This document shows positions 14,095 through 21,281 of a DNA stretch of 39,076 nt, piece by piece. The translations under genes and the position numbers were made by a program. The notes beneath the pieces are model-generated. The model saw only the letters and a list, made by a program, of their open reading frames with translations, was not told the DNA's origin and did no database searches. Each line of letters begins with the position of its first letter. Positions within the stretch are counted from its first letter, which is position 1. Source of the stretch: a virus; the IMG/VR virus record IMGVR_UViG_3300009093_000082, positions 1-39,076 of that record; one strand, 5' to 3'.

Positions 14095-15186
14095 TTAAAT
14101 CTCCTTAGTTACGATCTGACAGGCTCTTCCAGCCTGAAGTATGACCATTGCCGACACGACATCCCGCGATGCGGACAAACCGCACTCTGGGCATTTATGC
14201 CATCGGTCACTTAGTTTTTTGGATACAGATGCGCCGCAGATGCAGGTTTGCGAAGTACCCCTTGGATTGACTCGTACCAGCGTCCTACCAGCATCTGCCG
14301 CTTTGTAGGTAAGCATGTTTACGAATGCGGACCATCCTGCATCGTGGATTGATTTGGCCAGCCGGGATTGCGCCAGCCCTTTGACGTTCAAATCTTCAAC
14401 TGCAATTAGTTGGTTACGATTGACGATCTGCCGAGACAATTTGTGATGGAAGTCGCTACGCTGATTGCGAACCTTGACGTGATGCCGCGCCACCCGCGCT
14501 ACGGCCTTCGCCCTGCGCTTGCTGCCACGTTTACAGCGGGCAAGATGCCGCTGCGCTCTGCGGAGCTTCGCCTGGGCTTTACGGAAGAACTGCGGGGCTG
14601 GCACTTCTGTCCCATCAGACAAGGCCACAAAAGAGGAGAGGCCGACATCAATGCCACAATCTTTTGCGGAGGGCGGCAGCGGGTTTACCTTAATCTCGCA
14701 AACTATAACTACAAACCAGCGGTCGGCCTCGCGCTTGACCGTGGCCATTTTTATAGTCCCGTCAACGGCACGGTGTAGATTAATCTTTATAAGCGAAGGG
14801 CATCCCTGTAAGCGCAAGCGGTCACCGTAAACGCTGAAACCCTTGGTATGTTTCGGAAAGGTGATGCTGTCAAAGCGCCGGAGAGAACGGAATCGTGGGA
14901 AACCATAGCCGCGCCGGAACAGGGCAGAGTACGCACGATCCAAGCGCTTCAATATCTCTTCAGCGCAGTTGAAATTGGGTATCTTCAGCAGTCCTTGCGC
15001 TCTGAGGTCTTTCAGTTGGCGAGACTGCTCATAGAAGCTGACGCGTTTCCGGCAAGTCTTCCATGCGTCTCTGCGCTCTTGCAGCGCGTCATTGTACAGG
15101 TCACACGCTTCGCGGAGTTGGCCTGTGAGCCATTCGGCCTGCTCTTGATTGGGATAGAGGCGGTATTTTAGACTTCTAACGGGCAT
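14095..15186 (-). CDS. tnpB: TnpB RNA-guided nuclease, catalytic residues intact
   Basis: 363 residues from MPVRSLKYRLYPNQEQAEWL, chosen because GAGGG lies upstream; an in-frame extension to the shared left-end block exists. RuvC-I Asp180 (CGIDVGLSSF), RuvC-II Glu264 (IAVEDLNVKGL) and RuvC-III Asp342 (SASRDVVSAM) are all present, with a zinc ribbon C315/C317/C332/C335. Family knowledge: TnpB is guided by an omega RNA from the element's 3' end and cuts next to a short motif, helping the element persist. No tnpA is visible, so it depends on a transposase in trans or is domesticated by the phage. Confidence 0.92.
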   Translation of the reverse strand: MPVRSLKYRLYPNQEQAEWLTGQLREACDLYNDALQERRDAWKTCRKRVSFYEQSRQLKDLRAQGLLKIPNFNCAEEILKRLDRAYSALFRRGYGFPRFRSLRRFDSITFPKHTKGFSVYGDRLRLQGCPSLIKINLHRAVDGTIKMATVKREADRWFVVIVCEIKVNPLPPSAKDCGIDVGLSSFVALSDGTEVPAPQFFRKAQAKLRRAQRHLARCKRGSKRRAKAVARVARHHVKVRNQRSDFHHKLSRQIVNRNQLIAVEDLNVKGLAQSRLAKSIHDAGWSAFVNMLTYKAADAGRTLVRVNPRGTSQTCICGASVSKKLSDRWHKCPECGLSASRDVVSAMVILQAGRACQIVTKEI

Positions 15187-15271
15187 CGGCAGACCCTCAT
15201 CCGGTCTGTTGACATGGGCCGGGATCGTGTTCAAGCACTTTCCCGACCCGCCCATTATACCGAACTTTATG
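14095..15271 (-). mobile_element. TnpB-only IS200/IS605-type element 1
   Basis: A tnpB gene with no tnpA transposase beside it. A left-end block at 15240-15271 (minus strand includes TATAATGGGCGGG) matches that of the second element at 24 of 32 positions. Near the right end is a hairpin AGGCT-CTTCC-AGCCT (14121-14135), followed by AAGGAG. The exact ends, and any omega RNA, are inferred. It sits between two small operon genes without disrupting either. Confidence 0.6.
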
Positions 15272-15282
15272 CAGTTTTTCAC

Positions 15283-18138: not shown

Positions 18139-18446
18139 GCGATTCTCCTCTTACTCGCCCAAGCCTTGCATTCCTTCAGTTCTTCCCGGTGTGCCGCTAT
18201 CGCTTCCTTGGCCAGTACCAGGATTGCATCTGTGAGCGATGCAGCATTGCCGCAATTACTGTCACGGTGATGGAGCCACTCGGCATCAGCCTGTATGCGC
18301 TCCATCCGCCGAATGTCCTGAGAGATATATCTGGCGTGGCGCTTCATGCCCTTGGCGATTCGCTCTCGATCTTTCACCGTGAGCCGCTTTGGTTTGTTAT
18401 CGGTGATCTCCCTGTTTTGCCTAGGGTTTCTAGCGCTATCTTGCAT
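18135..18446 (-). CDS. Basic helical hypothetical protein (103 aa)
   Basis: MQDSARNPRQNREITDNKPK, then basic helices (ERIAKGMKRHARYISQDIRR). Its ATG lies inside the last codons of tnpB-2, with AAGGAG 8 bases upstream, so the transposon end supplies its ribosome-binding site, as in the other element. No family recognised. Confidence 0.6.
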   Translation of the reverse strand: MQDSARNPRQNREITDNKPKRLTVKDRERIAKGMKRHARYISQDIRRMERIQADAEWLHHRDSNCGNAASLTDAILVLAKEAIAAHREELKECKAWASKRRIA

Positions 18447-19597
18447 GTGCAAGACTCCTTTCGTGGGCCGATCCAGCCCCGGCGAGTAGCGTATTGATGG
18501 CCGCGTTTACATCGCGGTCATGCTGCGCTCCACAGGCGCAACGCCACTGCCTTACCGCAAGCCCACTCAATCCCGTAGGGCCAGATTGCGCCCCGCAGTT
18601 CGAGCAGGTCATGGTGGAACCTTTGGAATCAACTTCGATGTACTCAGTACCGCCGATAAGGCTCTTGTATGTGAGCATCCGCCGAAGTTGCGCATGGCCC
18701 GAACTGGCCACACTTTTCCCAAATCTCTTCGCTATTCCCTTGATGTTGTCAGAACTAAAAACTATGGTGACGTTCTCGGCTACCAGCCGCCGCGATAGCT
18801 TGTGGTTGCGATCCTTGCGCTTATTACGGATACGCTCTTGAATCCTGGCACTCAGTCTCTTGTTCCTGCCTCGATGCGCCTGTGCGAGCCGTGTAGCTCC
18901 AGCCTCAAGCTCTCTGGGGTGCTCTATGACTTCGCCATCTGAAGTCGTGAGTAGGTTGCCAAAGCCGGGATCAATGCCGATAATCCCACTGGCTGTGCGC
19001 TCAATCGGTTTTGGCTGCCCTTCGATGATGAGGCATAGATACCAGCCGGAAGCACGTTTGCAGATGCGACCGCGCTTTATCCTCCCGGCTGGCAAGTCCA
19101 TTTTGTGAAAACGAACGCTACCAAAGGCAGGGACGTAAATGCGGCTTCCTTTGGGCGCTAAAAATGGATCAGGAAATGGAATTGAACTCAGCGGTCTACG
19201 CTGCCCCTTCAGCCGTGGTTTTCCTGCCAACCGCTTGAAGCAGCGCGACCAGGATTCGTATGCGGTCGATAGAACCCCTTGAATCACATGGGATGGGACG
19301 CCGAGCTTTACACTGTGACCTGCTAGCAGGTTATTGAAGTCACGAGCAGAGAAATAGACTCTGTCTTTGGCATTTAGCTCGATCTTGCGGATTGCCCAAT
19401 TCCACACGGACGTTAGGTGATAAATCCACGTTTCCAGTTCGCGCTCTTGCGCCTTCGTAAGACGCAGCTTTAGCTGGCATTGAACGAACTGTGATACGCT
19501 TTTGTCGGGCACAGGCAGCAGCCTCAATCTGCTGTTTGCTGGGTCAGGACGGCGCGCTAACGCTGTTTCTGACTCGCCCATTATAGCAGATTTTAAG
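18436..19597 (-). mobile_element. TnpB-only IS200/IS605-type element 2
   Basis: Second tnpB element, without tnpA. The left-end block at 19566-19597 shares 24 of 32 positions with 15240-15271, including the core CGCCCATTATA. A right-end hairpin GGGCC-GATCC-AGCCC (18465-18479; G-T closing on the minus strand) and AAGGAG (18455-18460) parallel element 1. The ends are inferred from the comparison of the two copies. Confidence 0.55.
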
Positions 19598-19614
19598 TGC
19601 GTGTTATCGCTCAT
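18436..19614 (-). CDS. tnpB: TnpB-family protein with altered RuvC-II motif
   Basis: 392 residues from the ATG after a GAGG Shine-Dalgarno; 19581 and a GTG at 19512 are alternatives. RuvC-I Asp215 (GIIGIDPGFGN) and RuvC-III Asp368 (CGAQHDRDVNAAINTL) are present, with zinc ligands C337/C340/C359/C361. In RuvC-II the usual V-E-D-L-x-V-K-G aligns without gaps to F-S-S-D-N-I-K-G (286-293): the catalytic Glu becomes Ser287. It is therefore either nuclease-dead, as in TldR repressors, or a member of a clade with a rearranged acidic residue (Asp289). I recall similar S-x-D-N motifs in other database TnpB proteins. Follows the DUF1064 gene by 6 bases. Confidence 0.88.
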   Translation of the reverse strand: MSDNTHLKSAIMGESETALARRPDPANSRLRLLPVPDKSVSQFVQCQLKLRLTKAQERELETWIYHLTSVWNWAIRKIELNAKDRVYFSARDFNNLLAGHSVKLGVPSHVIQGVLSTAYESWSRCFKRLAGKPRLKGQRRPLSSIPFPDPFLAPKGSRIYVPAFGSVRFHKMDLPAGRIKRGRICKRASGWYLCLIIEGQPKPIERTASGIIGIDPGFGNLLTTSDGEVIEHPRELEAGATRLAQAHRGRNKRLSARIQERIRNKRKDRNHKLSRRLVAENVTIVFSSDNIKGIAKRFGKSVASSGHAQLRRMLTYKSLIGGTEYIEVDSKGSTMTCSNCGAQSGPTGLSGLAVRQWRCACGAQHDRDVNAAINTLLAGAGSAHERSLAHAR

Positions 19615-19620
19615 TGGGCC

Positions 19621-20049
19621 TCACACCTCGATTACTTCTAATCCAAAAATTGCCTTCAATAGCTTTTTCTTCAGCCGATAAGCAGGAGTCTTGGTCGCTT
19701 TCGATTTCACATCTTCCACAATCCTCTTGCCGTCTTTGTGATAGTCGAAGTCTGATTTGTAATCGCAAATATGCACACCGTTAACTACCAAGGCAAAGGC
19801 TGTCTGCCGCGCCAAGTAAGAAATAATTCCGCTGTTTCGCGCTACAGAAAGCTCGAACCATCTCCGCGCCTCTTTTGCACTGTCGAACGTGATGCCATCC
19901 ACAACTGTTTTCCGGTTTCCGTACTTGTTCCTCTTTTCGCGGATGTCCACCTTTACGCCACAGGTCTTGCAATGCAGAGTCTTGTCGAGTTTTGGATGCT
20001 TGCAGGGCTTTGCCGTCATGCCGTGACCTTCCGAAACGTAATTGCCCAC
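19621..20049 (-). CDS. DUF1064 family, PD-(D/E)XK-type phage nuclease
   Basis: 142 residues. An N-terminal zinc-like pair (HCKTCGVKVD) precedes the DUF1064 core: NKYGNRKTVVDGITFDSAKE, then HICDYKSDFDYHKDGKRIVEDVKS, in which D, E and K of the last block fit the PD-(D/E)XK active site. Family members are phage endonuclease-like proteins, often beside replication and recombination genes as here; Holliday-junction or debranching activity has been proposed in general terms. The ending YRLKKKLLKAIFGLEVIEV is typical. Confidence 0.8.
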   Translation of the reverse strand: MGNYVSEGHGMTAKPCKHPKLDKTLHCKTCGVKVDIREKRNKYGNRKTVVDGITFDSAKEARRWFELSVARNSGIISYLARQTAFALVVNGVHICDYKSDFDYHKDGKRIVEDVKSKATKTPAYRLKKKLLKAIFGLEVIEV

Positions 20050-20051
20050 AC

Positions 20052-21281
20052 CTAAGGGTTAGACTCCCAGCTAGCAAACGGAATCTCTTTATCGCCGTCA
20101 GGAGGTTTTATCGTGCGTTTGCCGTTGATTGAGTCCCAGAGGCTGATGAATGCAAGGCGATGCGTCAGTGAAGTTTGCCCGCTTACAATCACGCCTTCTG
20201 CTTGGGCATCCTCTTCGCTGATCTCCTGCACTCTCTCAACCTTTACGCTGACTATTTCAAGAGTGAGACGTGAGGCCCAGCGCGGCATATGGATGGATGG
20301 TTGCCATGGGCTTGCACAAATATCTTCGCTGCCGCAGTTGTGGCGCGGATTTTCCGGGCAGGTCAATTCTGGCTGAGGATCGGTTGCTCTGTAATGCGGT
20401 TGCAGCCAGCCGCTTTCATCTTCATTGTCGAATCGCTTGACTGGACGGCCATCATTGAACGGCGGCTCATCATCTTCAACGTTTTGCTGCAAGGCGAACG
20501 TTTCTCGCACCCAGAGACGATCTCCCGGCTGCTCAGGAATGTAAGCCGGTAAGTTTCTAGGTGGCTGGATGTGATTGGCCCACGTCTTGCCGTTCAGTAC
20601 ATCGCGCACCGTTTCAACGTCAACATCGAATAGCGCGGCTAAATGCGGTATCGTGGTAATGCCACGTTGCTGGCGAATATGTTCCACGTTTGCATCGGAG
20701 AGCCTTGCGTGTGGACTAGATGAGCCAGTCAAACTGCCATGCGCCGATGAATCCGCCCTGTTTTGTTCAGGCGTTCCCCAATCAAGGTTCATTGGCGTGT
20801 TGTTTTTGGAATTGCCGTCCATGTGGCGCACCTGGGGTAAGCCTTCAGGAGCGACACCATAGAATGCCTCGCATATGAGCTGGTGAACATATTCTTTGCG
20901 AAGCTCACCAACCGCTACCATCTGATAGTTTTGCTTGTAGCCACCTAGCCACGGCGACATCGGCTTGCGGTCTGAGTTGTAAATTACCCCATCGTCTCCG
21001 GCGAAGTATTTACCGTTTGTCCGGGGGATTGGCTTGAACGTGACACGCGGCCCACGACCGTAGGGACAAAACGCGGCAATGATTTCACCCTCAGCAGCGG
21101 TATCGAGAAACACATCTCCGTTCCTGCGCTTAAATAGCAGGCGCGTGCAATCCATACCCTGTGCGGTATCGGCCTTTATTACTCGCCGTGTCTGAGTCTT
21201 CCTGCCCTCAAGAATGGCTCTGACCATTGCGCCGCTAAATAAAATAGGTTTCTCTTGAACTGCAATCGCTGTTGCCGTCAT
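20052..21281 (-). CDS. ASCH-type phage protein with in-frame HNH homing nuclease insertion
   Basis: 409 residues. Residues 11-75 (KPILFSGAMVRAILEGRKTQ...FCPYG) and 251-409 (QPGDRLWVRETFA...WQPSIHMPRWASRLTLEI...ISEEDAQAEGV...LWDSIN) are the two halves of a common phage ASCH-like protein whose uninterrupted form reads CPYG-QPGDRLWVRET. Between them, residues 76-250 are a complete HNH homing-type nuclease: a strand region NGKYFAGDDGVIYNSDRKPM, HNH core VHQLICEAFYG...VRHMDGNSKNN...LDWGTPEQN, and a helix-turn-helix (ARLSDANVEHIRQQRGITTI). Intein splice residues are absent, so a true fusion is expected. ASCH proteins are thought to bind RNA or modified nucleotides. Confidence 0.85.
   Translation of the reverse strand: MTATAIAVQEKPILFSGAMVRAILEGRKTQTRRVIKADTAQGMDCTRLLFKRRNGDVFLDTAAEGEIIAAFCPYGRGPRVTFKPIPRTNGKYFAGDDGVIYNSDRKPMSPWLGGYKQNYQMVAVGELRKEYVHQLICEAFYGVAPEGLPQVRHMDGNSKNNTPMNLDWGTPEQNRADSSAHGSLTGSSSPHARLSDANVEHIRQQRGITTIPHLAALFDVDVETVRDVLNGKTWANHIQPPRNLPAYIPEQPGDRLWVRETFALQQNVEDDEPPFNDGRPVKRFDNEDESGWLQPHYRATDPQPELTCPENPRHNCGSEDICASPWQPSIHMPRWASRLTLEIVSVKVERVQEISEEDAQAEGVIVSGQTSLTHRLAFISLWDSINGKRTIKPPDGDKEIPFASWESNP

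Follow-up and report, generated by a model that had tools for sequence, protein, structure and literature searches.

An I-HmuI-like HNH endonuclease carried in frame within a phage ASCH-type gene, with no detectable intron or intein

Homing endonucleases situated inside coding genes are usually thought to require an intron or an intein, which spares the host gene. The ShiLan domain, an HNH module that lies out of frame within the DNA methylases of actinophages, leaves the host frame open and shows no signs of splicing (PMC11855218, PMC9957025), raised the question of whether unspliced insertions can persist and, if so, how. A gene in the IMG/VR viral record IMGVR_UViG_3300009093_000082, of which we studied positions 1 to 39,076 on one strand (this whole stretch of 39,076 nucleotides being the window), poses the same question in a different form. 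Its open reading frame, at positions 20052-21281 on the minus strand, encodes a protein of 409 amino acids with the architecture ASCH-HNH-ASCH. In the literature that we searched, HNH elements have not been reported from ASCH genes. Here we analyze the anatomy of this gene, ask whether the insert could be spliced out or separately translated, and describe related insertions in the same gene family.

Anatomy of the interrupted gene

The PHROG 874 profile matches residues 1-75 and 251-409 of the window protein (E=1.9e-52), and this match across both halves, along with the motif KTxT...WVRE, places it in that family of phage ASCH-type proteins. Alignment with uninterrupted relatives sets the insert, of 175 residues or 525 nt, between CPYG and QPGDRLWVRE. 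Within it, the HNH family phrog_59 is found at residues 81-237 (E=1.3e-28), and the Pfam family HNH_3 at residues 131-175 (PF13392; E=6e-10, above the cut-off). A comparison with the I-HmuI profile (E=1.8e-7) spans residues 4-160 of that enzyme, nearly end to end, and the predicted fold of the insert aligns with I-HmuI in Foldseek (E=4.6e-6 over 171 columns); both the HNH_3 motif and the C-terminal helix-turn-helix (HTH) region that aligns with I-HmuI are present. Judged by profile and predicted fold, the insert is thus a complete I-HmuI-like HNH-HTH endonuclease, its cleavage activity and homing being inferred. The features of the locus are as follows:

21057..21281, minus: ASCH-type N-terminal part, residues 1-75, ending in ...AAFCPYG (matches to phrog_874, phrog_27495 and phrog_28019; alignment with uninterrupted relatives)
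within 21057..21281, minus: K28 and T31 of a putative K-T-E triad
20532..21056, minus: in-frame HNH homing-endonuclease insert, residues 76-250 (not present in uninterrupted relatives; 55% identity with the same-site insert of locus L133)
20757..20891, minus: HNH_3 nuclease core, residues 131-175, VHQLICEAFYG...RHMDGNSKNN...NLDWGTPEQN (PF13392; alignment with I-HmuI, 1u3e)
20595..20651, minus: C-terminal HTH of the endonuclease, approximately residues 211-229 (phrog_3642 HTH match at 193-233; helices in the predicted model)
20055..20531, minus: ASCH-type C-terminal part, residues 251-409, QPGDRLWVRE...SWESNP, with E260 of the putative triad (phrog_874 match at 248-389)
20052..20054, minus: premature amber stop TAG replacing a W codon of the conserved NPWVW (relatives have NPWVWxxxF)
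20016..20051, minus: lost ASCH tail VWAITFRKVTA and ancestral TGA stop (translation in the same frame past the TAG)
19621-20019: next gene, DUF1064, its ATG overlapped by the ancestral ASCH TGA

A first-pass annotation, made from the sequence alone, had read residues 1-75 and 251-409 as one ASCH-type protein and the 175 residues between them as a full HNH-HTH nuclease, and both readings are borne out by the family match, the seamless join of CPYG to QPGDRLWVRE and the two alignments with I-HmuI. The alignment to uninterrupted homologues that it had proposed gives the CPYG/QPGDRLWVRE boundary listed above. Its description of the C-terminal half as running to residue 409 holds for the family match but overlooked the amber codon, by which the last 11 residues of the ASCH domain are missing. 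An assembly chimera or artefact can be ruled out, as the same 7.4 kb recurs at 100% identity in a second IMG/VR contig, 3300025913_000116, and the independent relative L133 has the same fusion.

Across 44 sequences of the family G253, W257 and E260 (window numbering) are invariant. K28, T31 and E260 are conserved in PHROG 874, and a triad of K21-T24-E74 has been described in YqfB (PMC6972931); the equivalence of the two sets of residues is an inference. The Pfam ASCH model (PF04266) does not match the window protein, and 18 of 44 relatives match it, with a best E-value of 2e-4.

The stop codon of the window gene falls at the first W of the NPWVW of its relatives. TAG also terminates 11 of the 51 longest non-overlapping open reading frames of the window, and looks like an ordinary stop in this phage, which rules out amber readthrough or recoding. 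Past it the frame runs on as VWAITFRKVTA to the overlapping TGA, so that the ASCH half of this copy ends 11 residues short. The complete C-terminal strand NPWVWxxxF is thus a family feature that the window protein does not have, the corresponding sequence in L133 being NPFVW. Most occupied genes score near the range of uninterrupted ones against a C-terminal-half profile trained on uninterrupted genes; the window protein scores lower than most of them because of the amber codon. The function of the ASCH half of this copy is doubtful: it is probably impaired by the late nonsense codon, and may be decaying. The endonuclease part lies upstream of the amber codon and is unaffected.

Structure prediction gave AlphaFold models of moderate quality (pTM 0.50-0.52), with the HNH domain confident in one model and the ASCH halves only in the other. 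The first alignment had set the WVRE of uninterrupted proteins against HNH residue 101, making the ASCH half of that model unreliable; a cleaner alignment mended the ASCH halves at the cost of confidence in the HNH domain. Foldseek searches with this cleaner model of the interrupted protein recovered no match to an ASCH fold or to a fold in the PDB. With models of this quality, a clean loop-out of the insert, which the first-pass annotation had proposed to look for, can be taken only as a possibility.

The same phage encodes two TnpB-like proteins. One of these, at 18436-19614 on the minus strand (guided_TnpB, E=1e-56), has IVFSSDNIKG in the RuvC motif where active TnpBs have VEDLN, and retains both Asp motifs; going by this motif, its catalytic Glu appears to be lost, and it is possibly a nuclease-dead, TldR-like TnpB. 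The second, at 14095-15282 on the minus strand, has an intact VEDLNVKG motif.

Splicing and separate translation

On the usual view, a homing endonuclease within a coding gene spares its host by being removed from the RNA or the protein. Rfam searches with the insert returned no intron even at E<=10, the sole hit being an unrelated sub-threshold sRNA, and those with the window and eight related loci likewise returned no intron. The RNA fold of the insert is no better than that of shuffled sequences (z=-0.9). Only about 5 residues at one end and 13 at the other, or about 15 and 39 nt, lie outside the HNH fold, which along with the absence of an Rfam match rules out a group I or II intron. At the protein level, no intein family of Pfam or NCBIfam matches the window protein. 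The insert begins with R76 and ends with E250, followed by Q251 at the +1 position; an intein is excluded by the absence of Cys, Ser or Ala at position 1, of a C-terminal Asn, and of Cys, Ser or Thr at +1.

Separate translation of the HNH domain from an internal start can also be rejected, as the insert contains no in-frame ATG, GTG or TTG upstream of residue 108, itself a position inside the HNH fold; the HNH domain would therefore be made only within the ASCH polypeptide. In the absence of protein data, the product expected from the sequence is a single fused polypeptide. The first-pass annotation had anticipated these points, namely the lack of intein splice residues, flanks too short for a group I intron and a single fused protein, and each withstood the searches described here. 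Its broader proposal, that a homing nuclease colonized the gene by in-frame fusion rather than splicing, is supported by the same fusion in L133 and by the open host frames of the out-of-frame relatives considered below.

Related insertions and the open host frame

A search for homologues with and without the insert, which had likewise been suggested at the outset, was carried out with degenerate DNA patterns and alignments, and recovered uninterrupted genes as well as 19 more cases of an HNH inserted in this gene family. Scans with the single protein recovered only the window sequence from viral contigs, and nothing from genome contigs. These insertions fall into three classes.

Class I comprises the window gene and that of a betaproteobacterial MAG, L133, which share the insertion site. 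The L133 protein (373 amino acids) has an intact ASCH C-terminus and is 50% identical to the window protein overall, with 55% identity in the HNH domain; third codon positions are the most diverged in all three segments of the two genes. Both class I fusions retain K28, T31 and E260. The insert of L133 ends (PPNMPRYQRPPGQRLWVRE) in PPNMPRY, akin to the NMPRW junction of class II, which hints that class I may stem from recombination, at the NMPRW repeat, between a class II element and an intact gene.

Class II has five members (Aeromonas phage ST4, L012, L105, L109 and L156), with the HNH domain again in frame. Here it runs from directly after GDRL to NMPRW in place of the segment WVRE...SIH, so that the putative catalytic Glu borne by WVRE is lost. 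The boundaries were set by comparing L109 with two close uninterrupted genes, L090 on the 5' side (87% DNA identity) and L059 on the 3' side (95% DNA identity). In the cultured phage ST4 the class II gene, ST4_051 (WNL63609.1), is annotated as a single CDS, whose unspliced product would be a fusion of 368 residues. Seven genes with an in-frame HNH preserve an open frame through ASCH-HNH-ASCH.

In class III the HNH domain lies inside the ASCH gene but has its own reading frame, out of step with that of the host. When only the class III HNH served as query, 17 loci were found, all 17 of them inside ASCH genes and with an identical frame offset, and 13 of these are distinct. In L169, L175, L181 and L182 a short common 5' leader (approximately DILYRLTD in the ASCH frame) precedes the HNH in differing ASCH backgrounds; it probably belongs to the element. 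The gene at 3370-4560 of L110, which is the same as the L181 record, has its ASCH N-terminal and C-terminal parts in different frames, and is the only occupied gene that we found with a broken host frame.

Across the HNH open reading frame, the ASCH frame is free of stops in each of the 13 distinct elements of class III. When the codons of these HNH frames were shuffled synonymously, the ASCH frame remained open in 0-2.15% of the shuffles, with about 3-9 stops expected; among control HNHs (free-standing, adjacent or in-frame) that frame was open in none of 12. The 13 elements are related and do not amount to 13 independent trials. Pairwise comparison of five of them gives 54-66% protein identity and differences at 50-65% of third positions, and because they are so diverged an unconstrained host frame would be expected to have closed. 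The results of the codon shuffles point to a host frame that is kept open across the insert. Translation of the host gene through the insert is the one condition under which an open frame would be expected in every case; it is the simplest reading, and the ASCH gene is probably so translated. In classes I and II the problem is solved in another way, the HNH and its host having one frame in common.

Inferred homing, its alternatives and known systems

In a tree of the HNH domains class II and class III each form a clade (98/96 and 100/99, respectively). In a tree of the ASCH flanks, in contrast to these coherent HNH clades, the occupied alleles are scattered among empty ones, with 5 changes over 5 rows for class II and 4 changes over 4 rows for class III. 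Over 78 uninterrupted genes, conservation is highest in the two 24-nt stretches that encode GDRLWVRE and SIHMPRWA, and these coincide with the boundaries of the elements. Coherent HNH clades, scattered hosts and conserved target codons make up the pattern expected of homing, as far as sequences alone can tell; cleavage has not been shown. We found no empty allele nearly identical to the window gene itself, the nearest relative of its flanks, L015, being distant.

HNH genes also occur immediately downstream of intact ASCH genes in L002, L007, L073 and L090, as in p14-p15 of Myxococcus phage Mx8, and such HNHs form a further clade of the tree (100/99). It seems that the ASCH gene attracts neighboring free-standing homing genes too.

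The course of events that we propose is that an I-HmuI-type HNH gene, without any splicing element, would insert in frame beside the most conserved stretch of the ASCH gene and be translated as an internal domain of a single ASCH-HNH-ASCH polypeptide. In a co-resident phage whose ASCH allele is uninterrupted, this HNH may then nick or cut that allele near the CPYG-QPGDRLWVRE codons, and its repair would bring in a copy of the insert. Because nothing removes the insert, the element would persist where the host frame is open, either by sharing that frame, as in the window gene, L133 and the ST4 type, or, as in class III, by keeping a second frame free of stops across an out-of-frame HNH. We consider it likely that the window gene is such an unspliced homing element with the host gene translated through it, its DNA cleavage and homing and the folding of its ASCH halves being inferences.

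The seamless join of the flanks as normal ASCH sequence would also be expected if an unrecognized mini-intron or intein-like process removed the insert and restored CPYG-QPGDRLWVRE. We regard this as very improbable, given how few residues are left outside the HNH fold, the lack of an Rfam intron, junctions with neither nucleophile nor Asn, and the conservation in class III of an open host frame, which would be needless if the insert were spliced. The loss of the last 11 residues to the amber codon might instead mark the window gene as a decaying pseudogene, a dead-end insertion whose open frame over the HNH is merely left over; this too is quite unlikely, since the HNH motif is intact and the frame open, L133 has the same architecture without the lesion, and substitutions are biased to third positions in all parts of the gene.

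A further possibility is a domesticated fusion in which ASCH, a member of the PUA superfamily and possibly a sensor of modified bases, directs the HNH domain. The joining of a PUA-type sensor to an HNH nuclease is a known restriction architecture, as in the EVE-HNH and SRA-HNH enzymes and other PUA-superfamily modification-dependent nucleases such as VcaM4I (PMC7897488), and the seven open in-frame fusions would accord with it. We nonetheless think it unlikely. The HNH of the window protein belongs to the homing I-HmuI/HTH type; in PADLOC it matched no restriction model, only that of a homing endonuclease. Different HNH clades at different sites, some of them out of frame, would break the coupling of sensor to nuclease, and class II lacks the WVRE segment with its putative catalytic Glu. 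The known PUA-HNH modification-dependent enzymes are, to our knowledge, end-to-end fusions, whereas the window HNH, besides being of another type, interrupts the PUA-type domain rather than following it.

Among known systems the unspliced element proposed here most resembles the ShiLan domain: an HNH module, missing from homologues, lies in a conserved phage gene that reads open across it, neither an intron nor an intein can be detected, and the distribution is patchy and homing-like. It differs in its host, an ASCH gene rather than a methylase, and in being in frame, so that we would file the window gene as an in-frame variant of the ShiLan-type element that fails the out-of-frame feature. 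The ShiLan arrangement itself is matched by the 13 class III relatives, in which the open host frame has here been tested statistically. I-HmuI (PDB 1u3e), with which the insert can be aligned almost from end to end in sequence as well as in predicted fold, from HNH to C-terminal HTH, is encoded in a group I intron, unlike the window enzyme, which has no detectable intron and is an internal domain of another protein. Gene 31 of Salmonella phage epsilon34, an eaE-HNH fusion (PMC2629481), likewise joins a phage protein in frame to an HNH homing endonuclease; it keeps only the N-terminus of the phage gene, whereas the nuclease of the window protein is internal and both host halves remain. ST4_051 and the rest of class II also have in-frame HNHs in the same PHROG 874 family; their HNHs belong to another clade, and the window gene, unlike them, keeps all of its ASCH sequence up to the amber codon.

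The same solution thus recurs within one phage gene family, both in frame and out of frame, and the question raised by ShiLan becomes testable in the cultured Aeromonas phage ST4. With somewhat less assurance than for the window gene, we favor the view that ASCH genes host specialized homing elements that need no splicing, translation of the host running on through the endonuclease, either as an in-frame domain or under selection for a stop-free second frame. The in-frame fusions provide natural cases in which a nuclease is borne as an internal domain. If this interpretation is true, homing endonucleases would have a third means, after introns and inteins, of residing inside a coding gene.
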